Shown here piece by piece: positions 5,560-22,734 of a stretch of DNA of 64,000 nt. The notes below the pieces were generated by a model. It searched no databases and had not been told where the DNA came from. It saw only the letters and a list, made by a program, of their open reading frames with translations. The DNA is taken from the NCBI RefSeq assembly GCF_027497215.1, contig NZ_CP114904.1, positions 3,494,001 through 3,558,000 on the forward strand. The letters are read 5' to 3'. This DNA comes from Micromonospora sp. WMMD812. Its GTDB lineage: Bacteria > Actinomycetota > Actinomycetes > Mycobacteriales > Micromonosporaceae. The translations under genes were made by a program, and so were the position numbers. The stretch's first letter is position 1; each line of letters begins with the position of its first letter.

Positions 5560-5789
5560 CTCGGCCCTACTGGATGTCGTGGGCCAGACTTGCCTCACTC
5601 AAACTCCATCAGCCTTCATGGACGACGCGCCCCGTACGATCGAGTGCCGCGGGCTGCAGGACTTAGCACAGACGATTGCTGTGGAACCGCTTGGCGGTAA
5701 CCAATACATAAATCACCCCTGTCCGAATTTATCGAAAGGAGCGGAAGATAACCGCTTCCAACGCGGGTATCGACTCTGATACCTGGGTC
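5560..5789. other. Low-GC spacer before the intein-derived gene
   Basis: This stretch is noticeably AT-richer than its neighbours. It contains GAAAGGAG at 5734-5741, a perfect ribosome-binding site, but no ATG, GTG or TTG at the right distance; the in-frame codon there is ATA at 5748. The reading frame of the downstream gene is open from 5712, and the residues encoded just before 5790 (SDTWV) match the start of intein block A. Confidence 0.5.
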
Positions 5790-6824
5790 ATGACTTCGGG
5801 CGGCGCGCGTCCAGCACGTGATTTGATCAACGTTCCGTTTTTAGCGATCCTGGACGGAAAGCCTCACATGACATTGTCCGAAGGCTTCTTTCCGGCTGGA
5901 CCCAAACCTACTGTGGAGCTGATTACACGGGATGGCTATAGGGCAAACATCGGGGCGGACCAGGTGGTCAGAACGGCAACTTCTTGGTTGACCGCACAGA
6001 AACTTCGAGCTGGTGATAAGGTCGTCTTGTCGGATCACGACGATGTCGCCCCTTGGAACGGTGAGGGCTCAGAAGCCAACGGCTACCTGATCGGCCACCT
6101 GGTCGGGGATGGAACCTTCGGCCCTGGCGGCCGCGCCTACTGTGCAATTTGGGACAACGATGGCGATCAACCGGTCTCGGAGTACATCGAGCGTGCGATA
6201 CGCGATCTTGGTGTGGGTCCTACTTTCAAGGGCTGGTTCAGCACCAGTAACCAACGACGGATCGGCACCAAAGGGCTTGCGGCCCTAGCTCGGGACTTCG
6301 GCATCGTGCGAGGCAACAAGACCGTGACGAGTCATGTGGAGCGGAGCTCCTCTGACTTCTATCGCGGCTTTCTACGTGCATTGTTCGATACGGATGGTCA
6401 CATCGAAGGTCAGTCAACCGGGAGCGGCGTCTCCATAAGGCTGACCTGGATTGACCTGGACGGGCTGCGGGCGGTTCAGCGGATGCTCGCCCGCCTCGGC
6501 GTCCGTTCGGTTATCCGTGATTGCCATCCCGCAGGCCGTGAAAGCTTTCACGGTTACGCCTCCCAGGCCTCCTACCGGCTCATCATCACGGGCGCCAACG
6601 CCGCCCGTTTCATACGGGAAGTAGGCTTTCTTGACCGCCGCAAGGCCGAATCCTGGACGGAGGCTACTCGGGACATGAGGCGTGGCTTTTATCGAAAGCC
6701 CTGCACAGCCGAGGTGAAGTCTGTAACTCCGCTCGGGGACCGACCTGCCTACGGCGTTTCGGTGGCAGATGTCCACTCCTACGACGCAAACGGCATTGTG
6801 ATGCGCGACTGCGATGGCCAATAG
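5790..6824 (+). CDS. Free-standing, splicing-dead intein with LAGLIDADG homing endonuclease
   Basis: 344 residues from the first ATG, although the intein-like frame begins earlier (SDTWVMTSGGARPARDL spans the nominal start, block A). Residues 99-108 (YLIGHLVGDG) and 193-203 (GFLRALFDTDG) are the two LAGLIDADG helices, both with their catalytic Asp. The end, VHSYDANGIVMRDC, matches intein blocks F/G. Splicing residues are lost: the expected first Cys is Gly, block B has ADQ where TxxH is expected, and the terminal His-Asn is Arg-Asp. No extein coding sequence flanks it. Family knowledge says such inteins sit in conserved enzymes such as ribonucleotide reductase; here it stands alone. GC is lower than neighbours. 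Confidence 0.75.
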   Translation: MTSGGARPARDLINVPFLAILDGKPHMTLSEGFFPAGPKPTVELITRDGYRANIGADQVVRTATSWLTAQKLRAGDKVVLSDHDDVAPWNGEGSEANGYLIGHLVGDGTFGPGGRAYCAIWDNDGDQPVSEYIERAIRDLGVGPTFKGWFSTSNQRRIGTKGLAALARDFGIVRGNKTVTSHVERSSSDFYRGFLRALFDTDGHIEGQSTGSGVSIRLTWIDLDGLRAVQRMLARLGVRSVIRDCHPAGRESFHGYASQASYRLIITGANAARFIREVGFLDRRKAESWTEATRDMRRGFYRKPCTAEVKSVTPLGDRPAYGVSVADVHSYDANGIVMRDCDGQ

Positions 6825-6901
6825 TGAGCCAAGGCGCCAGGCCGTCGGCGAGCAGCCATGGCCAGCTACGTGAACAGCTGAGAACTATTCGGTCAGCGGA
6901 T

Positions 6902-7040
6902 CAGCTCCATGGTCACGACGGTGGGTCCGCCGGGCGGACTCATCACGGTCATCGTGCCACTGCGGTAGAAAATGGCGCGCAGGGCACCGTCGAAGAGCGT
7001 TGCGGCCCTGGCCGCCGGGCCGGTCCCGGCGGCCAAGGCC
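6902..7040 (-). pseudogene. Relic of a histidine-kinase 3' end
   Basis: Bases 6902-6959 match 13846-13903, the 3' end of the intact kinase gene, with one mismatch in 58. Read on the minus strand they encode MTVMSPPGGPTVVTMEL, against MTVTSPPGGPTVVTMEL in the intact kinase. Further upstream (to about 7040) the match continues weakly after an insertion (AGTGPAARAATLFDG against AGTGLAGVRRRLAAFDG). No kinase body remains. Confidence 0.7.
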
Positions 7041-7080
7041 GACCCACGACACGCCCTGACGGTCGCGGCGCGCAGCCGCC

Positions 7081-7977
7081 TCAGCCAAGGTGCCGGTGCA
7101 GGAACGCGGCTGCGGCGTCCGCCGCGTCGGTCACGTACGGCTCCTCGTCGTAGAGGTCGATGTGCCGGGTAGCGTCGAGCCATACGATCTCCGTCTCGCC
7201 GGCGGCCCGGTCGTGCAGTTCGGCGGCGAGTTCGGGCGCGCAGTAGGCGTCGACCGTGCCGTGCACGACCAGCAGCGGAGTCGCGGCGAGCAGCGGGGCC
7301 GCGCCGAGCGCGTCGAACGTCATCAGCGTGTGCAGGGAGCCGCGGGTCACCTGGTTGACCCAGTGTGGTGAGGCGGACCGGCTGGTGCCGTAGTAGGCGT
7401 AGGGTTCGTCGCCGCCCATCGCCGCTTCCGCGCCGCCGGGTGCCACGGCGGGAAGGACACCGTCGTACGCGTCGAGGAACCCGGCGAGGGCTGAGCGGTA
7501 GGTGTCGATCCCCATCCGCGAGGCGAACCAGGCCGGGCTGTTGTAGCCGCCGCCGATGCCGACGACCGCCTTGACCCGCGGGTTCTCCGCCGCCGCCCGT
7601 ACCGCGTAGCCGCCGCCGAGACAGACGCCGACCAGTCCGATCCGGTCTGGATCCACCTCGGGCCGGAACCGCAGCAGCTCGACCGCGGCCCGCAGGTCGG
7701 CGAGCTTGCCCTGGCTGTCCTCGTGCCCCCGGCGACCTCCGCTCTCGCCGAAGCCGCGATGGTCGAAGGCGAGGGTGACGAACCCGGCCCGGGCGAGCCG
7801 TTCGGCGTACGCCCCGGCGACCTGGTCCTTGACGCCGGTGAACGGCCCGGTGAGGGCGAGCGCCGGCGCCGGCCCGTCGCCGGGCGGCAGCCGCAGCTCG
7901 CCGACCAGGTCGATGCCGTCGCTGGTGAACGTGACGCGTTCGGCGGCGGTGTGGGTGTTGGTCCGGAACTCGGTCAC
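7081..7977 (-). CDS. Alpha/beta hydrolase of dienelactone-hydrolase type (Cys nucleophile)
   Basis: 298 residues from GTG at 7977. The alpha/beta-hydrolase core is clear: strand and oxyanion region (PALALTGPF), DHRGFGES, the nucleophile elbow GVCLGGGYAV, an acid in HGTVDAYC and a late His in DATRHIDLY. The nucleophile position is Cys rather than Ser, as in dienelactone hydrolases. It is divergent from an HxlR regulator 192 bp away, which probably controls it. The frame stays open far upstream, but the protein homology begins at about MTEFRTNTH, which decides the start. Substrate not predictable. Confidence 0.85.
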   Translation of the reverse strand: MTEFRTNTHTAAERVTFTSDGIDLVGELRLPPGDGPAPALALTGPFTGVKDQVAGAYAERLARAGFVTLAFDHRGFGESGGRRGHEDSQGKLADLRAAVELLRFRPEVDPDRIGLVGVCLGGGYAVRAAAENPRVKAVVGIGGGYNSPAWFASRMGIDTYRSALAGFLDAYDGVLPAVAPGGAEAAMGGDEPYAYYGTSRSASPHWVNQVTRGSLHTLMTFDALGAAPLLAATPLLVVHGTVDAYCAPELAAELHDRAAGETEIVWLDATRHIDLYDEEPYVTDAADAAAAFLHRHLG

Positions 7978-13198: not shown

Positions 13199-13843
13199 TC
13201 AGCCGTTCAGGTACGCGAGCACCGCGAGTACCCGCCGGTTGTCGTCATCGGACGGTGGCATCCCAAGTTTGCTGAGGATGTTGTTGATGTGCTTGCTGAC
13301 GGCCTTTTCGGTGACGAACAGCCGCCCGGCGATCGCCGCGTTCGACCGTCCTTCGGCCATCAGCCCCAGCACCTCCCGTTCCCGGGCGGTCAGCTCCCCC
13401 AGCCGCTGCGCGCCGGTGTTGCGGGCCAGCAGCTGGGAGACCACCTCCGGGTCCATCACCATGCCGCCGCCGGCGACCCGGCGGAGCGCGTCGATGAACT
13501 GGCCGACGTTGGACACCCGGTCCTTGAGCAGGTAGCCGACTCCCCCGCTGCGATCGGCGAGGAGTTCCCGGGCGTACAGCTGCTCGACGTGTTGGGACAG
13601 CACGAGGATCGGCAGCCCCGGCAGCTGGGCCCGGGCCGCGAGGGCGGCCTGCAGGCCTTCGTCGGTGAAGGTGGGTGGCAGGCGTACGTCGACGACGGCG
13701 ATGTCGGGGCGGTGGCGGGTGAGGGCCGGCAGCACGGACGGCCCGTCGGCGACGGCCTCGACGACCTGGTGTCCGTAGGCGTCGAGGATGTGCGTCAGCC
13801 CGTCCCGGAGGAGGGCGAGGTCCTCCGCGATGACAACGCGCAC
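13199..13843 (-). CDS. LuxR/NarL-type response regulator
   Basis: 214 residues from GTG at 13843. The receiver domain begins VRVVIAEDLALLRDGL (acidic pocket), phospho-acceptor Asp in DIAVVDVRLPP, conserved Lys in YLLKDRV. The C-terminal GerE helix-turn-helix reads LTAREREVLGLMAEGRSNAAIA, then KAVSKHINNILSKLG. Its start lies inside the 3' end of the kinase gene (49-bp overlap), so the pair is translationally coupled with the kinase first. The last 20 codons are duplicated as a relic at 11449-11511. Confidence 0.92.
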   Translation of the reverse strand: MRVVIAEDLALLRDGLTHILDAYGHQVVEAVADGPSVLPALTRHRPDIAVVDVRLPPTFTDEGLQAALAARAQLPGLPILVLSQHVEQLYARELLADRSGGVGYLLKDRVSNVGQFIDALRRVAGGGMVMDPEVVSQLLARNTGAQRLGELTAREREVLGLMAEGRSNAAIAGRLFVTEKAVSKHINNILSKLGMPPSDDDNRRVLAVLAYLNG

Positions 13844-15099
13844 GGCAGCTCCATGGTCACGACGGTGGGTCCGCCGGGCGGACTCGTCACGGTCATCGTG
13901 CCATCGAAGGCTGCCAGGCGGCGTCGCACACCCGCCAGGCCGGTCCCCGCGTCCGGTGTGGCGCCGCCGCGGCCGTCGTCGCCGACCACCATCGCCAGCA
14001 GGCCGTCGCGGTGCGCGACGGAGATCCAGGCGCGCGCGGCGCCGCTGTGTTTGGCGACGTTGGTGAGCGCCTCGGCCACGGCGAAGTAGGCCGCGGATTC
14101 GACCGCCGCAGGTGGGTTGCCGGGTAGCCGCACGTCGACGTCCACGGGCAGCGGCGCGGTCAGGGCGAGGGCTTCCACCGCGCCGGGGAGGCCGCGTTCG
14201 GCGAGCACCGGCGGGTAGATGCCGCGGACGAGGTGGCGCAGCTCGGCGAGGGCGTGGCCGCTGGTTTCCTGCGCCTCGCTGAGCAGTCGCGCCGCCCGTG
14301 CCGGGTCGTCGGCCATGAGCTTCTCGGCCAGGCCGATGCTCATCCGCAGCGCGACCAGTCGGGCCTGTGCCCCGTCGTGCAGGTCGCGTTCGATCCGGCG
14401 CAGCTCGGCGGCCTGGGTGTCGATGGTGTCGGCGCGGGTGGCGGCGAGGTGCCGGACCCGCAGCGCCAGCTCCTGCGCGCGGGTGGGGGCGAGGAAGAAG
14501 CCGGCGAATCGGAAGTGCAGCCACACCAGCCAGTGCGCGGCGGCCAGGCCGCCGGCGAGGAACAGCCAGCCCTGCGGGGCGGCCAGCCACGCCTCCGCGA
14601 AGGTGTCCATCGGCCAGAAGACGCCGTAGCCGTACCAGCCGATGGTCAGGTGGAGCACCAGCGGCACGAACAGGACGCCCTCCAGCCCGTACGCCGGCAG
14701 GACGAACGCGAGCAGGCAGACGCCGCCGGTGACCGTGCCCGGGATCAGCCAGGCGAAGTCCCGCCAGGTCGCCGGGTCGGCGACCACCCAGCGGAACCGC
14801 TGCCAGGTGCCGAGCCGGGCGCCGGCGGGCACCGGCGCGTACGGCGAGGCGATGGGCACCCCGGCGGCCCGGCTGAGCCGGCGTTGCAGCGTCAGCGACT
14901 GCCGTACGAGCACGGTGACCGCCGGGAAGAGCGCGAACCCGATGCCGAGCGCGGGAATGAGCGCGAGGGAGACCACCGACAGCGCGAACAGCGCCACGTT
15001 GGTGGTCAGGGTCAGCAGGGCCACGGCCAGGCCCTGCACGGCGGCGAGCGCGCCGGGCCGGATCTGCCGCCAGACGATCGAGCGTACGGAGCTGTCCAC
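13795..15099 (-). CDS. Membrane histidine kinase (NarL/DesK-like)
   Basis: 434 residues from GTG at 15099. N-terminal half: several TM helices (LALIPALGIGFALFPAV, WLIPGTVTGGVCLLAFVLP and others). Dimerisation/phospho-acceptor segment is HisKA_3 type with IERDLHDGAQARLVALRMS (His in DLHDG). ATPase domain: AEALTNVAKHSGA (N box), GDDGRGGA (G1) and GTGLAGVRRRL (G2). This is the usual architecture of kinases paired with LuxR-type regulators. It is divergent from MMPL copy 2 with 108 bp between starts, making that exporter the likely target. The final ~58 bp recur at 6902-6959. Confidence 0.9.
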   Translation of the reverse strand: MDSSVRSIVWRQIRPGALAAVQGLAVALLTLTTNVALFALSVVSLALIPALGIGFALFPAVTVLVRQSLTLQRRLSRAAGVPIASPYAPVPAGARLGTWQRFRWVVADPATWRDFAWLIPGTVTGGVCLLAFVLPAYGLEGVLFVPLVLHLTIGWYGYGVFWPMDTFAEAWLAAPQGWLFLAGGLAAAHWLVWLHFRFAGFFLAPTRAQELALRVRHLAATRADTIDTQAAELRRIERDLHDGAQARLVALRMSIGLAEKLMADDPARAARLLSEAQETSGHALAELRHLVRGIYPPVLAERGLPGAVEALALTAPLPVDVDVRLPGNPPAAVESAAYFAVAEALTNVAKHSGAARAWISVAHRDGLLAMVVGDDGRGGATPDAGTGLAGVRRRLAAFDGTMTVTSPPGGPTVVTMELPCALSSRRTSPSSGTG

Positions 15100-15207
15100 G
15101 GCGTCATTCTCCGCCCGGCGTCCACGGGAATCGGTGGTGCTACCACCACCCGCTTTCGGGACCTGCCACCCCTGTCTTCGAGCCGCGCGGGCCGAAGGAT
15201 CGATGGC

Positions 15208-17343
15208 ATGACCAGGAAAAACGAAACCACGCGACACCGGCTGGCGGGTCTGCCGTCGGGCCGCCGCAGCAAGTATGTGATGCTCGTCTTCTGGCTTGTC
15301 CTCGTCGCGGCGGCCGGGCCGCTGGCGATCAAGCTGACCGAGGTGCAGGACAACGACAGCCTCGGCGCGCTGCCGGCCAGCGCCGAGGCGAGCCGGGCGG
15401 TGCAGCGGGCGGAGGAGGCGTTCCCGGACTCGCAGGAGCCCCTCGCCGTCGCCGTCTACGTCCGCGAGGCCGGGCTCACCGACGCCGACCGCGCCCGGGT
15501 GGACGCCGACCGTGCGGCCTTCGCGCCGTACGCCGACGGCGGTCAGGTGTCCCCGCCGGTGCCCAGCGACGACGGGCGGGCGCTGCTGCTCTCCTTCCCC
15601 GTCGCCGGGGACGCCGACCAGCGCGCCGACGCCGTGGCCGCCGTCAAGGATCGCCTGACCGCCGACGTGCCCGACGGTTTGCGGACCGCGCTCACCGGCC
15701 CGGCCGGCGGGGAGGACGACGTCTTCGACGCGTTCGCCGGCATGGACACCGCGCTGCTGCTGGCGACCGCGGGCACCGTCGCGTTGCTGCTGCTCATCAC
15801 GTACCGCAGCCCGGTGTTGTGGTTGATCCCACTGATCACGGTAGCGCTGGCCAACCAGCTCGCCAGCGCGGTGGTGTACCTGCTGGCCCGGTACGCCGAC
15901 CTGGCCGTGGACTTCCAGAGCCAGAGCATCCTGACCGTGCTCGTCTTCGGGGTCGGCGTGGACTACGCCCTGCTGCTCATCGCCCGCTACCGGGAGGAGC
16001 TGCGCCGGCACGCCGACCGGCACGCGGCGATGGCCGTGGCGCTGCGCCGGTCGATCGGCGCGATCGCCGCGTCGGCGGCGACCGTCGCGCTCGGCCTGCT
16101 GTGCCTTCTCGCCGCGCAGTTGCCCTCGACTCGGGGGCTCGGGCCGGTCGGCGCGGTCGGGATCGTGGCGGCGCTGCTGGCCATGACCACGCTGCTGCCG
16201 GCCGTGCTGGTCATCTTCGGGCGGTGGCTGTTCTGGCCGTTCGTGCCCCGGTACGCGCCCGACGCGGTCGGGCTGGACGTGGCGGCCGAGCATGGGCTGT
16301 GGCGCCGCATCGCCGGGTTCGTGGGCCGGCTCCCCCGCGCGGTGTGGCTGGGTACGGCGGTGGCGCTGGTCGCGCTGAGCTTCGGCATGGTCAACCTCAG
16401 CATCGGCATGCCGCACGACGAGTCGTTCACCAAGGAGGTCGGCTCGGTCACCGGCCAGCGGATGATCGAGGCGCACTACCCGCGGGGGTCGGTCGCGCCC
16501 GCCGAGATCGTCGCCGCCGCCGGCCCGGCCGAGCAGGTGGCGGCCGCCGCCCGTACCGTGCCGGGGGTCGCCGAGGTGGGCGCGCCGGAACGGTCGCCGG
16601 ACGGCCGGTGGGTACGCATCGCCGCGGTGCTGGCCGACACGCCGGACAGCGACGCGGCGATGGACACGGTCGAGCGGCTCCGCGCGGCGGTGCACGCCGT
16701 GCCGGGCGCGCAGGCGCTGGTCGGCGGGGACACCGCGTACCTGATCGACGAGGAGCGGACGGTCGACCGGGACAACCGGGTGGTGGTGCCGCTGGTGCTG
16801 GCGGTCGTCCTCGTCATCCTGGTGCTGCTGCTGCGGGCGCTGGTCGCGCCGCTGCTGTTGCTGGCGAGTGTGGTCCTGTCCTACGTCGCCGCGCTGGGCG
16901 CGGCCGGGCTGATCCTCGACGCGATGGGCTACCCGAACCTGTTCGTCGGGATCCCGCTGCAGACGTTCCTGTTCCTCGTGGCGCTCGGCGTGGACTACAC
17001 CATCTTCCTCAGCACCCGGGCTCGGGAGGAGGCGGCGCGGCTCGGGCACCGCAACGGGGTGCTGCACGCGTTGACCGTCACCGGTGGGGTGATCACCAGT
17101 GCGGGCGTGGTGCTGGCCGCCACGTTCGGTGCGCTGAGCGTGCTGCCGCTGGTGCCGTCCGTGCAGACGGCGGTCATCATCGGGGTCGGCGTGCTGCTCG
17201 ACACGTTCCTCGTCCGCACCCTGCTCGTGCCGGCGCTGGCGCTGCATCTCGGCTCCCGCACCTGGTGGCCGAGCCGCCTGGCCCGGACCGCACGCCGGTC
17301 GGTCGCGGCCCCGCCGGTGGAGCGGGCGCCGGCGGTGTCGTAG
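15208..17343 (+). CDS. MMPL/RND-family membrane transporter (copy 2)
   Basis: 711 residues from ATG 15208, with GAAGGAT 8 bp upstream. Same architecture as copy 1: N-terminal TM (KYVMLVFWLVLVAAAGPLAI), first loop, TM bundle with GVDYALLLIARYREE, second loop, TM bundle with LGVDYTIFLSTRAREEA. Both halves retain the Asp-Tyr proton-relay pair. Related in layout to copy 1 but clearly diverged. It sits back to back with the kinase/regulator pair, which suggests induction by that system (inference), for example by membrane-active compounds. Confidence 0.9.
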   Translation: MTRKNETTRHRLAGLPSGRRSKYVMLVFWLVLVAAAGPLAIKLTEVQDNDSLGALPASAEASRAVQRAEEAFPDSQEPLAVAVYVREAGLTDADRARVDADRAAFAPYADGGQVSPPVPSDDGRALLLSFPVAGDADQRADAVAAVKDRLTADVPDGLRTALTGPAGGEDDVFDAFAGMDTALLLATAGTVALLLLITYRSPVLWLIPLITVALANQLASAVVYLLARYADLAVDFQSQSILTVLVFGVGVDYALLLIARYREELRRHADRHAAMAVALRRSIGAIAASAATVALGLLCLLAAQLPSTRGLGPVGAVGIVAALLAMTTLLPAVLVIFGRWLFWPFVPRYAPDAVGLDVAAEHGLWRRIAGFVGRLPRAVWLGTAVALVALSFGMVNLSIGMPHDESFTKEVGSVTGQRMIEAHYPRGSVAPAEIVAAAGPAEQVAAAARTVPGVAEVGAPERSPDGRWVRIAAVLADTPDSDAAMDTVERLRAAVHAVPGAQALVGGDTAYLIDEERTVDRDNRVVVPLVLAVVLVILVLLLRALVAPLLLLASVVLSYVAALGAAGLILDAMGYPNLFVGIPLQTFLFLVALGVDYTIFLSTRAREEAARLGHRNGVLHALTVTGGVITSAGVVLAATFGALSVLPLVPSVQTAVIIGVGVLLDTFLVRTLLVPALALHLGSRTWWPSRLARTARRSVAAPPVERAPAVS

Positions 17344-17933: not shown

Positions 17934-18017
17934 CGGCCGGTGCTGTGGCTTGGTCCTGCTACCAAGAGATCGGCCACCGGATGCGGTGGCCGGGGCCGGG
18001 CAGATCGGGGAGCGCGG

Positions 18018-19652
18018 GTGCGGGGCAGAGGACTGGTCGCGGTCGGGGCGGCGGCGCTGATACTGGTCGCGGGATGCACCACCGGTGGGAAGTCGGATGG
18101 GCCGCCGGAGCGCCGCGACGGTGCCACGACATTGCGCATCGTCGCCGGCTCGGAGCAGGAGAAGGTGCTGGCCACCATCGTCCGGCCCTGGTGCGAGTCG
18201 AAGGGCTACCGGTGCGAGACCACCCTCAAGGGCTCCGTCGACCAGGCGCGGTTGCTCTCCGCCGGCGACAAGGCCTTCGACGCGTACTGGTTCGCCAGCA
18301 GCGTCTTCCTTCAGGTGGGTGACAAGTCCAACGCGCTGCAGGACGTCAAGCCGATGTTCCTCACCCCCGTCGTGTACGCCGGTTGGCGCGGCGAGATGCA
18401 GCGGCTGGGCCTGGCCGGGCGCACCGACGTGTCGATCAGCGACATCCTCACGGCGGTGGAGTCGGGCAAGACCCGGGTCTGGGCGACGAATCCCACCCAG
18501 TCCAACTCCGGGGCGACCGTCCTGTTCGGGTTCCTGAACCACTTCGCCGGCAACGGGCCCGGCAAGACCCTGACCCGGGAGCAGTTGGACCTGCCCGCCG
18601 TCGACACCGGAATCAGCCGGTTCATCAAGGCCATGGACCAGACCCCGCCGTCGACCGGCACCCTCATGAACGAGTGCGTGGCCCGCCCCGACGACTGCAA
18701 GACCCTCTTCACGTACGAGGACCTGGTCATCGAGAAGAACCAGGAGCTGGTCAAGGCCGGTCGGGAGCCGCTGGTGGTGGCGTACCCGCGGGGGTCGCTG
18801 GCCATCAGCGACGCCCCGCTGGGCTTCCTGCCGCACCACGACGACTCCGACGCCGGGAAGCGGCGGATCCTCACCGAACTGCAGGACTACCTGCTCACCT
18901 CGCCGGAGGCGCAGGCGAAACTGCTGGGGTTGGGGCGGCGGCCGGCCAGCAGCATCGGGCTGACCCTCGACAAGCCCGACCTCGCGGTGTTCAACCCCGA
19001 CTGGGGCATCCAGGCGACCGTCAACGAGCAGGGCATCCAGTTCCCGGCGGCGCCGGTGATCGAGGCGGCGCTGAACCGTTACCAGACCCACTACCGCCGC
19101 CCCGTCGCGGCCCACTACTGCCTCGACGGCAGCGGCTCGATGGGCGACAACGACGGCTGGACGGGGGTCGAGGCGGCCGCCCGCCAGATCTTCGACGCCG
19201 ACCAGGCGGCGGCGAATTTCCTGCAGACCCACCCGGAGGACACCACCACCGTGACGGTCTTCAGCCGCGGGATCACCGCGGGACCGTGGACGGTCAACGG
19301 CAACGACGCCACCGCCCTGCACGGCCTCACCGAGAAGATCAACGAGTACGCGCCGGGCGGCGGCACGAACATGTACGAGTGCCTGAACCGGGCCGCCGAC
19401 GAGCTGAGCAGATCGCCGTCCGGCGACCGGAAGCGGCTGCTGGTGCTGATGACCGACGGCCTGTCCGAGCGGAACGGACGCGAGGCGGCGCTGGCGGCGC
19501 TGAAGTCGGCGAAGGTGCCGGTGGTGGCGATCGCGTTCGGGTCGGACGCCGACCCGTCCCAGCTGAAGGAGGTCGCGAACGCGACCGGCGGCGCCTTCTT
19601 CGAGCAGGACGACCTGGTGGCGGCGCTGCGCCAGGCCGCCGGATACAAGTAG
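18018..19652 (+). CDS. Lipoprotein: solute-binding domain fused to VWA domain
   Basis: 544 residues from GTG 18018. Signal peptide with lipobox (LILVAGC, lipid Cys at ~20). Residues ~35-330 form an extracellular solute-binding domain (TTLRIVAGSEQEK, WATNPTQSNSGATVLFG, FLPHHDDSD). Residues ~365-540 form a von Willebrand A domain with an intact MIDAS: DGSGS (D370, S372, S374), the Thr in GGGTNMYE, and the Asp in MTDG. It should be tethered outside the membrane and bind metal through the VWA domain. First gene of a four-gene operon; the next start is 10 bp after its stop. No ABC permease accompanies it, so transport in the classical sense is unlikely. Confidence 0.85.
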   Translation: MRGRGLVAVGAAALILVAGCTTGGKSDGPPERRDGATTLRIVAGSEQEKVLATIVRPWCESKGYRCETTLKGSVDQARLLSAGDKAFDAYWFASSVFLQVGDKSNALQDVKPMFLTPVVYAGWRGEMQRLGLAGRTDVSISDILTAVESGKTRVWATNPTQSNSGATVLFGFLNHFAGNGPGKTLTREQLDLPAVDTGISRFIKAMDQTPPSTGTLMNECVARPDDCKTLFTYEDLVIEKNQELVKAGREPLVVAYPRGSLAISDAPLGFLPHHDDSDAGKRRILTELQDYLLTSPEAQAKLLGLGRRPASSIGLTLDKPDLAVFNPDWGIQATVNEQGIQFPAAPVIEAALNRYQTHYRRPVAAHYCLDGSGSMGDNDGWTGVEAAARQIFDADQAAANFLQTHPEDTTTVTVFSRGITAGPWTVNGNDATALHGLTEKINEYAPGGGTNMYECLNRAADELSRSPSGDRKRLLVLMTDGLSERNGREAALAALKSAKVPVVAIAFGSDADPSQLKEVANATGGAFFEQDDLVAALRQAAGYK

Positions 19653-19661
19653 GAGCCGGCG

Positions 19662-20258
19662 GTGCGACACAAGCTGGCCGCTCCGGCCGGGCTGATCACG
19701 GCCGTCGTGGTCTTCGTCGGGATCTTCGCGTTCACCGGTAGCCTGGTGTGGTCGCCGCTGCTCGCCGTCGCCGCCGCGCTCGGGGTCTACCTCATGGTCG
19801 ACGACCGCACCGCGGCGCGGGTGGACGACGACACCTACGCCGAGGACGCCCAGCGCCGGGTGGAGGCGGCCCTGCGCACCGTCCGGGACGTGCGACGACT
19901 CAGCCGCGAGGTGAACGCCCCGGCGGCCCGCGCGGCGCTGGAGGACGCCTGCCGCTACGTGCCGGAGCTGCTGGAGCGGGTGCGGGCCACCGCACCGGAC
20001 AGCCTCTACTCGACGGCGAGCCAGATCGGCGGGCACCTGGAGAGCCTGGACGGGGCCGTCCGGCAGTACCTCGACGTGCAGCGCGACCCGGTGCTCTACC
20101 GGGACGCGGGCACCCTGCGGGCGAGCGGCGAACAGGCGTTCCAGCGCTTCGCCGAGTTCGCCCTGGACAGCGTGCGGCTGGTCAACCAGGGAGACATCGT
20201 GCGCTACCGCGCGAACCTGGAGACCGTCGCACCGCCGAAGCTACCCGAGCTGGGATAG
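19662..20258 (+). CDS. XpaC-like membrane protein
   Basis: 198 residues from GTG 19662 with AGGAG 6 bp upstream. Two N-terminal TM helices (LITAVVVFVGIFAFTGSLVW, LLAVAAALGVYLMV) are followed by a long helical cytoplasmic region (AEDAQRRVEAALRTVRDVRR..., LESLDGAVRQYLDVQRDP). This matches the XpaC family (5-bromo-4-chloroindolyl phosphate hydrolysis protein), which is nearly always encoded beside TelA. Here TelA is two genes downstream in the same operon. The biochemical role of XpaC is not established; a membrane scaffold for TelA is the usual proposal. Confidence 0.75.
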   Translation: MRHKLAAPAGLITAVVVFVGIFAFTGSLVWSPLLAVAAALGVYLMVDDRTAARVDDDTYAEDAQRRVEAALRTVRDVRRLSREVNAPAARAALEDACRYVPELLERVRATAPDSLYSTASQIGGHLESLDGAVRQYLDVQRDPVLYRDAGTLRASGEQAFQRFAEFALDSVRLVNQGDIVRYRANLETVAPPKLPELG

Positions 20259-20268
20259 AGGAGTTCGC

Positions 20269-21405
20269 GTGAGACTGCCAAGTGCCCGGTTCCTCATCGG
20301 CCTGGTCACCGTGGTCGCGGTCTGCGTCGCGACCGCGGTCCTGGTGCAACGGTTCAGGCCGGTCGCCACCGCCGCGCCCATGACCGTCACCTGCATCGGC
20401 GGCTCGGAGAAGTCCGAGCTGATGGCCGACCCCGAGGTCGAGCGGATCCTGCGCGACCGGCACCAGCTCGACGTCAACTTCGAGCCGCTCGGGTCGTACG
20501 ACCAGGTCCAGCTCTCCGCCGACGACCTGAGGGCCCGGCAGATCGACTGCCTGTGGCCGTCGAGCGCCAGCGCGCAGAGCGTCTTCGAGTCCCTGCACCA
20601 GGGGGCGTTTCCCGACTACCGGTGGGAGAACGTCCTGCAGTCCCCCGAGGTGGTCTACGCCGGTCCGCGCGGCACGGATGCCCTGGTCAAGGCCGGGCTC
20701 GTGCAGCAGCGCGACGGCCGCTACTACATGGTCGACGTGAAGTCGCTGCTGCTGGACTACGTCATCAAGCGCAAGACCTGGGAGTCGATCGGCGCCGCGG
20801 ACCTGCGCGGCCCGATCGCGGTGTCCAGCACCGACCCGGCGAAGTCCAACAGCGGGTTCGTCCTCGCCCAGCTCGAACTGAGCATCCTGGCCACCTCCGA
20901 CGTCTTCTCCGCGCCCAACCTTCAGCAGGCGCGCACGGCGTTGCCGACGATGCGGGCGCTCTACGACGCGCAGGGCCTGCAGGCGCGCGGCTCCGACGCC
21001 GGGTTCCGGGAGTGGCTCACCCAGGGCGGCGAGTTCAAGGCGCCGCTCTACGCCGGCTACGAGAACCAACTCATCCAGCAGGTCGTCGCGGCGGGCGACG
21101 CCAGCGCGTCCCTGCTCAAGAACGTGCGGATCCTCTACCCCGACCCGACCATCTACAGCGACCACCCGATCCTGGCGCTCGACGCGGACGCCGGCCGGTT
21201 CATCGACGCGATGAAGGACCCGGAGATCCAGACGATCGCCTGGCGGAAGTACGGATTCCGTTCCGCCGTCCAGGTCGGAATCAACGACCTGACGACCTTC
21301 AAGGACCTGCCGCTCGCCGAGCAGATCCGGACCACGCCGGCGCCGGCCGCCGACGTCACGCTCGCCCTCCTGAACTGCCTGAAAGACGCCAAGACCTGCG
21401 CCTGA
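20269..21405 (+). CDS. Second solute-binding protein, membrane-anchored
   Basis: 378 residues from GTG 20269 (GAGGAG 5 bp upstream). One N-terminal TM helix (FLIGLVTVVAVCVATAVLV) acts as an uncleaved anchor; there is no lipobox Cys. The rest is a periplasmic-binding-type domain. It shares motifs with the first gene: GSEKSE against GSEQEK near the start and TDPAKSNSG against TNPTQSNSG mid-domain, so the two binding domains are homologous. It lacks the VWA domain. Two Cys near the C-terminus (LLNCLKDAKTCA) could form a disulphide. Operon position between XpaC and TelA suggests a shared extracytoplasmic sensing role. Confidence 0.8.
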   Translation: MRLPSARFLIGLVTVVAVCVATAVLVQRFRPVATAAPMTVTCIGGSEKSELMADPEVERILRDRHQLDVNFEPLGSYDQVQLSADDLRARQIDCLWPSSASAQSVFESLHQGAFPDYRWENVLQSPEVVYAGPRGTDALVKAGLVQQRDGRYYMVDVKSLLLDYVIKRKTWESIGAADLRGPIAVSSTDPAKSNSGFVLAQLELSILATSDVFSAPNLQQARTALPTMRALYDAQGLQARGSDAGFREWLTQGGEFKAPLYAGYENQLIQQVVAAGDASASLLKNVRILYPDPTIYSDHPILALDADAGRFIDAMKDPEIQTIAWRKYGFRSAVQVGINDLTTFKDLPLAEQIRTTPAPAADVTLALLNCLKDAKTCA

Positions 21406-21417
21406 ACGGAGATAGCC

Positions 21418-22734
21418 ATGACCGATGCCACGGCTCTGCAGATCGACTTCGGCAGCATCGTCGGCGGGTCGGCCAACCCGCCGGCCGGCGCCGCGGACAC
21501 CGCCGTCTCCACCGCCCTCGCCGCCACCGGGCCACGGCAACTGGTCTGCAAGGACCTGCTCACGCCGGCGCAACGCGAACAGGCGCAGGCCGCCGCGGCC
21601 CAGCTCTACCCGACCATGCTCGCCAACACCGAGCAGCTCGCCACGTTCGGCAACACCGCGATCGACCAGGTCAACGCCCAGGTCAACCGGATCTTCCGGG
21701 AGGTCGGGCAGGTCAACATCCCCGAGCTCACGACGATCATGCGTGACCTCAACGACCGGATGCGCACCTTCCGCCGCAAGTACGACCCCAGCGACCCGAA
21801 GGTCCGGGAGGCGTTCAACCGGTTCATGGACGCGGTGGCCGGCATCTTCCGCAAGGGCCGCGACATGCTGCAGATGCTCTTCGAGGAGGCGCGGTCGGTC
21901 GAGCGGCAACTCGACCGGGTCGCCGGCCAGCTGGCCGACAAGCAGCAGCAGCTCAAGCGCAACGTGGTGCTCTGCGACGAGCTGTACAAGGCCAACGAGG
22001 CGTCGATCGCGCAGCTCATCGGGGCGATCGCGGTGATGGAGCTGGTCCGCGACGCCGCGGTCGCCGACGCCGCCACCATCACCATCAACCCCGGCGACGT
22101 GGATCAACGCGACAAGCAGGAGCGGCTGTCCCGGGTCACCGAGTTCATCCAGGCCATCGAGGTACGCATCAACGAGTTCCAGCAGCGCCTCTTCGTGGCC
22201 TGGTCGACCTCGCCGCAGGTACGCAACATTCGCACCCTCAACTACGGCCTGGGTCAGCGGCTCGCCCTGCTGATGAACCTCACCATTCCCACCATGAAGC
22301 TGACCATCGCGCAGTGGGCGCTGCTGTTGCAGAGCAGCCAGGCGGCCGACATGCAGCAGGCGGTGGCAGACGGCGCCAACGACGTGCTGTCGGCGTACGC
22401 GCGGGCGTCGCAGACCGCGGTGCCGGAGATCGCGCGGGTGATCCAGACGCCGACCATCCGGCCGGAGACGATCCTGGAGGTGGCCGAGTCGATCGACGCC
22501 CAGGCGCGGGGGATCGAGGACGCGGTCCGGTACGGCCAGCAGAAGCGCGCCGAGGTGGTCACCGCGATCGTCACCGCCAACGAGTCGATGTCGGCGTCGG
22601 CTCAGCAGCTGAGCCGTACGGTGGTGGAGCTGGTCACCCGGGCCAAGGAGCCGGTCGCGCTGCCGGCTGGGCCGGCGCTGCCCGACTCGATCCTGGCGAA
22701 CGCGCCGGGGGTCGTTCCCAGCCAGCAGCGGTGA
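21418..22734 (+). CDS. telA: TelA-family protein (toxic anion resistance)
   Basis: 438 residues from ATG 21418 (GGAGATAGCC before it). The whole protein is helical with long coiled-coil stretches (VERQLDRVAGQLADKQQQLK; EFIQAIEVRINEFQQRL) and the family-typical TIPTMKLTIAQWALLLQ. TelA proteins (PF05816) were named from tellurite resistance and also appear in Ter-type stress loci and peptide-antibiotic tolerance. No membrane segment is present, so it likely works at the inner face with XpaC. The last 30 residues are a low-complexity tail. It closes the operon. Confidence 0.88.
   Translation: MTDATALQIDFGSIVGGSANPPAGAADTAVSTALAATGPRQLVCKDLLTPAQREQAQAAAAQLYPTMLANTEQLATFGNTAIDQVNAQVNRIFREVGQVNIPELTTIMRDLNDRMRTFRRKYDPSDPKVREAFNRFMDAVAGIFRKGRDMLQMLFEEARSVERQLDRVAGQLADKQQQLKRNVVLCDELYKANEASIAQLIGAIAVMELVRDAAVADAATITINPGDVDQRDKQERLSRVTEFIQAIEVRINEFQQRLFVAWSTSPQVRNIRTLNYGLGQRLALLMNLTIPTMKLTIAQWALLLQSSQAADMQQAVADGANDVLSAYARASQTAVPEIARVIQTPTIRPETILEVAESIDAQARGIEDAVRYGQQKRAEVVTAIVTANESMSASAQQLSRTVVELVTRAKEPVALPAGPALPDSILANAPGVVPSQQR

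Follow-up and report, generated by a model that had tools for sequence, protein, structure and literature searches.

What would two solute-binding proteins do in an operon that also encodes XpaC- and TelA-family proteins, and that contains neither a permease nor an ATP-binding cassette (ABC) ATPase? This question is raised by four genes, which we call V, X, S and T, at positions 18018–22734 of a 64,000-nucleotide stretch of DNA (the window) from Micromonospora sp. WMMD812, whose genome is a single 7.13 Mb contig (NZ_CP114904.1; the window covers positions 3,494,001 to 3,558,000). An earlier note, made from the sequence alone, had taken this locus for an extracytoplasmic ligand sensor or metal-dependent complex signalling through XpaC to TelA. 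We tentatively favor a related reading, to which we give a little less than an even chance, in which the set is a permease-free extracytoplasmic ligand or metal sensor coupled via a membrane protein to TelA. The sensor idea stands in part: the genes form a conserved unit, the predicted topology is fitting and there are ties to the literature, whereas XpaC itself is limited to the Micromonosporaceae branch and TelA is often absent from the immediate neighborhood. The combination is apparently one of known parts, widely conserved and undescribed; as the note had supposed, no description of the four-gene set was found in the literature searched, subscription journals being mostly outside that search.

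Two homologous binding proteins, XpaC and TelA

The four genes lie on the + strand and are separated by gaps of 9, 10 and 12 bases (V/X, X/S and S/T, respectively), with a purine-rich stretch resembling a ribosome-binding site readable in the sequence ahead of each start. V (18018–19652) encodes a 544-residue lipoprotein with a type II solute-binding (flytrap) domain at approximately residues 35–310 and a C-terminal VWA domain; its longest open reading frame opens at 17940, and we take the start to be 18018 because this position fits the alignment of orthologues better. X (19662–20258) encodes a small XpaC-family membrane protein of 198 residues, with a hydrophobic N-terminus (residues 11–29 by hydropathy) followed by a charged domain, and S (20269–21405) encodes a second solute-binding protein of 378 residues, anchored by an N-terminal membrane helix (hydrophobic segment at residues 8–26). 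T (21418–22734) encodes a divergent TelA-family protein of 438 residues with no transmembrane segment, its hydropathy profile giving no hydrophobic stretch. This layout, and the family assignments that the note had offered for it, are borne out by Pfam and profile comparisons, for X at the level of its family. A promoter scan at the cassette, covering the sigma-70 type only, found none, and no terminator-like site was seen at the end of the operon, three such sites lying near 23.2 kb (versus 1.5 expected).

V matches the Pfam families VWA (E = 2.3e-13) and SBP_bac_11 (E = 1.2e-7), and the window copy of S matches no Pfam family. Profile comparison shows the two proteins to be homologous over ~300 positions (probability 99.3, E = 4.5e-20), in agreement with the proposal previously made from the GSE and SNSG motifs, which are present in both sequences. 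Five corresponding motifs, each with invariant residues, can be traced in V and S (GSE, G(S/T), WxxS or P, SNS(G) and YE), and these fall at matching strand-to-helix junctions when the 35-row V and 39-row S alignments are read together with the AlphaFold2 models (mean predicted local distance difference test scores of 87.7 for V and 90.2 for S). In the type II binding-protein fold, such junctions line the cleft. Two acidic cleft residues are also invariant in each protein, E46 and E234 in V and E47 and E265 in S. Among the best 50 Foldseek matches of each model, V matched ferric-binding, AfuA and ModA proteins as well as VWA domains, and S matched ferric-binding, sulfate-binding and ModA proteins, with a Foldseek probability of 1.00 for the leading matches of both, such that each is predicted to adopt the type II binding-protein fold. 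In the search of solved structures by sequence, the 55 matches of V listed all fall in its VWA part.

The VWA domain of V carries an intact metal-ion-dependent adhesion site (MIDAS), as had been read from the single sequence: D370, S372, S374, T450 and D480 do not vary among the V proteins aligned, all 35 of which have them. These are the DxSxS, Thr and Asp residues that serve the metal site of a MIDAS. Cys20 is conserved at 90% or more in the same alignment (A1), and a strict lipobox pattern is passed by 43 of 50 V proteins; six full-length proteins fail it though their cysteine is visible, as does the N-terminally truncated copy at locus L048, which was excluded from the alignment. L048 is also the sole V of the 50 in which DxSxS was not picked up, because the range searched did not reach that part of the protein. 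The gene in question, from Micromonospora haikouensis (L048, ~5700–7391), matches only residues 206–544 of V and is either truncated or an assembly error.

T scores 102.8 bits with the TelA model PF05816 (E = 2.7e-29; cutoff 30 bits) and is the only TelA match in the host genome. It is divergent, compared with ~280–306 bits for V-linked TelA and other TelA proteins in our survey of 197 genomes of the class (own genome included). It is conserved in the family. Of 150 sampled family genomes, 20 have a match to T (nearly full length in 18, the host among them, and partial in 2); T has no match among plasmids, and S has none among phages. A single-protein search with T returned only its own genome among the 197, and absence of T from the class was considered and rejected: the Pfam model finds TelA above its cutoff in 32 of the 197 genomes, and the single-protein result therefore reflects low sensitivity. 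The assignment of X is less direct. Against PF10112 (Halogen_Hydrol, XpaC), the window copy scores 18 bits (E = 0.0031), under the cutoff of 29.8, and none of the 197 class genomes, the window's own copy included, has a match over that cutoff. Since 15 of 15 members of the X family match PF10112 at E ≤ 1 (best 7.7e-10), the family is, judged from its sequences, XpaC.

Conservation of the set and exchange of its third component

The earlier note would have given way had the genes rarely been found together, which is not what the neighborhoods show. In all 14 named Micromonosporaceae loci, obtained by scanning genome contigs with S and then assigning genes by profiles, the order is V-X-S-T on one strand (V being truncated in L048), and the set is thus not a chance cluster. 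The full set is present at seven further loci (L078–L084), of which L079 seems to repeat L047. In the class survey, in which V matches of partial coverage were not counted as V, full-length V was found at 25 loci in 22 of the 197 genomes, with profiles adding L092 in a genome already counted. Strong S matches (over 150 bits) occur at 28 loci; because V adjoins S at 26 of these, and TelA adjoins 14 of the 26 pairs, the S–V pair is the core of the set. At the level of whole genomes, TelA is found above its cutoff in 20 of the 22 genomes with V and in 12 of the 175 others (Fisher p = 4e-17, with kinship among the genomes ignored).

Outside Micromonosporaceae, the third component is a different protein, X1, which adjoins V at 19 of the 25 S–V pairs other than the window's. 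X1 resembles XpaC in size, position and hydrophobic N-terminus, but none of 16 X1 proteins matches PF10112 at E ≤ 1, and signalling "through XpaC" is therefore specific to the window's branch. The order S-TelA-V-X1 is found at 13 class-survey loci, and also in Nonomuraea gerenzanensis and in the betaproteobacteria Variovorax sp. SRS16 and Sphaerotilus sulfidivorans, with S-V-X1 in Deinococcus taeanensis. We note that cyclic rotation turns S-T-V-X into V-X-S-T, as would an exchange of places between the pairs V-X and S-T.

X1 also accompanies TelA away from V. At 19 TelA loci without V (L058–L076), X1 adjoins TelA in 17, and at six of the 19 (L058, L059, L061, L062, L063 and L066) TelA-X1 is followed by a common gene run. 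In single representatives, Pfam identified in this run an AAA ATPase, a PknG-like kinase and a lipoprotein-type gene of the SBP_bac_3 family; a GlnX-like membrane protein is recognized by position only. The run resembles the GlnH-GlnX-PknG sensor (PMC6069109) and seems to link TelA-X1 to a known kind of binding-protein sensor, and there appears, as far as gene content can indicate, to be a second permease-free binding-protein sensor linked to TelA-X1. The two contexts differ in X1 itself: in the copies compared (L005–L024, L058–L077, L085–L087, L093 and L094), an N-terminal membrane segment was detected with a hydropathy window in 21 of 22 V-linked X1 proteins versus 0 of 17 V-less ones. Among the latter, the X1 of L063 has an internal hydrophobic stretch, and that of L076 is similar in sequence to the V-linked kind, yet lies below the hydropathy threshold.

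Mobility, flanking genes and rival explanations

With a 17 kb query centered on the cassette region and run against 61 genomes of the genus (own included), the cassette was found in at least 4 other genomes at 78–80% identity, and in the matches listed its edges lie at 18008–18228 on the left and 22712–22734 on the right. In genome G370, ~67 kb separates the cassette from the sequence matching the left flank in the window, and the two are on opposite strands. A concatenated-protein tree of 20 rows rejects a single clade for the 10 presumed genus rows (approximately unbiased test, p-AU = 2e-5, or 2e-4 without the window), and Plantactinospora groups with two of these 10 rows in the cassette tree. 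The patchy occurrence, differing sites and tree conflict together point to horizontal movement of the cassette in the window's genus, to which losses could contribute. Just upstream of the operon, window positions 13202–17343 hold a response regulator, a sensor histidine kinase and an MMPL transporter; the last, ending at 17343, is the nearest transporter seen to the operon. This upstream block matches several genus genomes at sites without the cassette.

Mobility of this kind also suits a role in surface protection or exclusion, where a mobile conflict cassette would use V and S to recognize or sequester a bacteriocin, an antibiotic, a metal anion or a component of a phage, with TelA strengthening the membrane. 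Published work lends this some support (all papers cited here by PMC number are drawn on in excerpt): for Ter systems, TelA and a vWA protein have been proposed to form barriers beneath the membrane that oppose phage or xenobiotics (PMC7824862), and mutation of lmo1967 is reported to increase sensitivity to nisin and tellurite, by a mechanism described as unknown (PMC12791056). Furthermore, the S-TelA-V-X1 set on plasmid 2 of Variovorax sp. SRS16 (L086, 3106–13470) lies 2.4 kb from annotated Wadjet anti-phage genes (JetA). We nevertheless consider protection an unlikely explanation. No PADLOC model fits the four window proteins or four from L006 (best E = 0.019), and several groups of loci in other families have flanks in common, as in vertical inheritance. 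A defence-island setting was likewise rejected, as the flanks of 20 loci show no such pattern and the commonest PADLOC family is matched by 3 of 140 flank proteins (no background control). This flank scan covered 140 of 157 proteins, with eight of L057 and seven of L079 (near-duplicates) and two very long proteins dropped.

A second, rather less probable explanation is ordinary transport, with V and S feeding an unlinked ABC permease or retaining nutrients on the outside of the cell; X and T would then be stress genes unrelated to them. The modeled folds of V and S would be those of classic type II binding proteins, and there are orphan binding proteins that rely on a shared permease encoded far away. 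A VWA domain, however, is not a usual part of a transporter, and the S–V pair is repeatedly linked to TelA and/or X or X1. The absence of a permease and an ABC ATPase from the operon, part of the original description, extends to its surroundings: BPD_transp_1 and ABC_tran are each matched by 4 of the 140 flank proteins, no family exceeds 5 matches (E ≤ 1e-5), and the linked permease and ATPase that mark the binding protein of an ABC importer are absent from the operon and not conserved across the 20 loci. Neither of the two findings that would have told against the note is thus made: the genes are repeatedly together, and no permease or ATPase is conserved in the flanks.

Extracytoplasmic metal handling is a third, likewise improbable, explanation. 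Here V and S would capture a metal, free or complexed, and the set would help to load exported proteins with metal or would confer metal resistance. We take YceF to be TerC-like and YceH to be TelA-like. In favor of metal handling, ferric-binding proteins rank first for both models, the acidic cleft pairs are invariant, the MIDAS is intact and yceF shares one operon with yceG and yceH (PMC3498285). Against it, a ligand cannot be read from similarity of fold, binders of sulfate, molybdate and sugar phosphates follow closely in the ranking, and the 25 families most often matched in the flanks include neither TerC nor any metal exporter.

A candidate envelope sensor

The sensor reading draws on three known systems, each of which resembles the cassette in part. 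The Firmicutes XpaC–TelA/YaaN pair, like the window, has XpaC- and TelA-family genes in one operon, and published data place these genes in regulons of the envelope-stress response: xpaC-yaaN belongs to the core sigma-W regulon of Bacillus subtilis (PMC3498285), lmo1966 and lmo1967 of Listeria monocytogenes rise modestly with bacteriocin (log2 of 0.63 and 0.61; PMC12791056), and xpaC is up ~7-fold with a liaR mutation in Enterococcus faecium (PMC10269926). The excerpts name no flytrap or VWA partner for this pair, and the window differs from it in having S between X and T and a divergent TelA. In Ter systems (TerB/C/D/F, TelA), TelA again occurs with a vWA protein in the proposed barrier role (PMC7824862), whereas the VWA domain encoded in the window lies outside the cytoplasm as part of one protein with a binding domain, and none of TerB, TerC and TerD is found in the 25 most frequent families of the flanks. 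Finally, the GlnH-GlnX-PknG system of mycobacteria and corynebacteria uses a binding lipoprotein that signals inward via a membrane protein rather than transporting (PMC6069109), as we propose for the cassette, although it has one flytrap of the SBP_bac_3 type, no VWA domain and a kinase as its output.

On the strength of this literature, sensing of a ligand outside the cell, relay by X or X1 and a TelA effector can be put together as follows. The lipoprotein V and the anchored S would bind the same or related small ligands outside the membrane; ligand closure, together with the MIDAS metal, would alter how V pairs, whether with S or with some other partner in the envelope; the membrane protein (XpaC here, X1 elsewhere) would relay this change inward; and TelA, as a helical scaffold at the cytoplasmic side of the membrane, would change envelope robustness under stress. 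The steps that we infer are the binding of ligand and of metal, the formation of a complex, signalling toward the inside and an effect on the envelope. The topology predicted by hydropathy, which places both binding proteins outside, X in the membrane and TelA in the cytoplasm, fits this scheme.

Several observations weigh against such a sensor. TelA adjoins V at only the 14 S–V pairs mentioned above, two genomes with V (G037 and G180) have no TelA match, and X1 is missing beside V at 6 of 25 survey loci. Direct profile comparison of the two TelA branches gives no firm homology, and neither does that of XpaC with X1 (probability 52), for which reason we name X1 a counterpart and not XpaC. Sequence searches of solved structures turned up no convincing relative for S, X or T. 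S is also found alone, with no V, X or TelA found adjoining, at L090 (6425–7504) and L091 (6442–7533), the second of these matches having an in-frame TGA.

On the Variovorax and Sphaerotilus plasmids, NCBI records list a "substrate-binding and VWA domain-containing protein", with the architecture of V in the window, and a "toxic anion resistance protein", in sets that profiles resolve as S-TelA-V-X1; the gene order differs from the window's and X1 replaces XpaC. As these automatic names make V a VWA protein and leave S and X1 "hypothetical", it is easy to overlook that the genes form a unit.

It is possible, although we would not yet lean toward it, that the permease-free sensor proposed here is one instance of a new transmembrane surveillance system spanning several phyla, in which two homologous flytraps, one with an integrin-like, metal-dependent VWA domain, drive TelA via interchangeable XpaC or X1 proteins. 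TelA and XpaC recur as stress genes with no known mechanism, as has been said of Lmo1967 (PMC12791056). If true, the surveillance reading would account for the signal to which TelA responds in these bacteria. The tie of TelA to two extracytoplasmic binding proteins provides a first testable input for this family.

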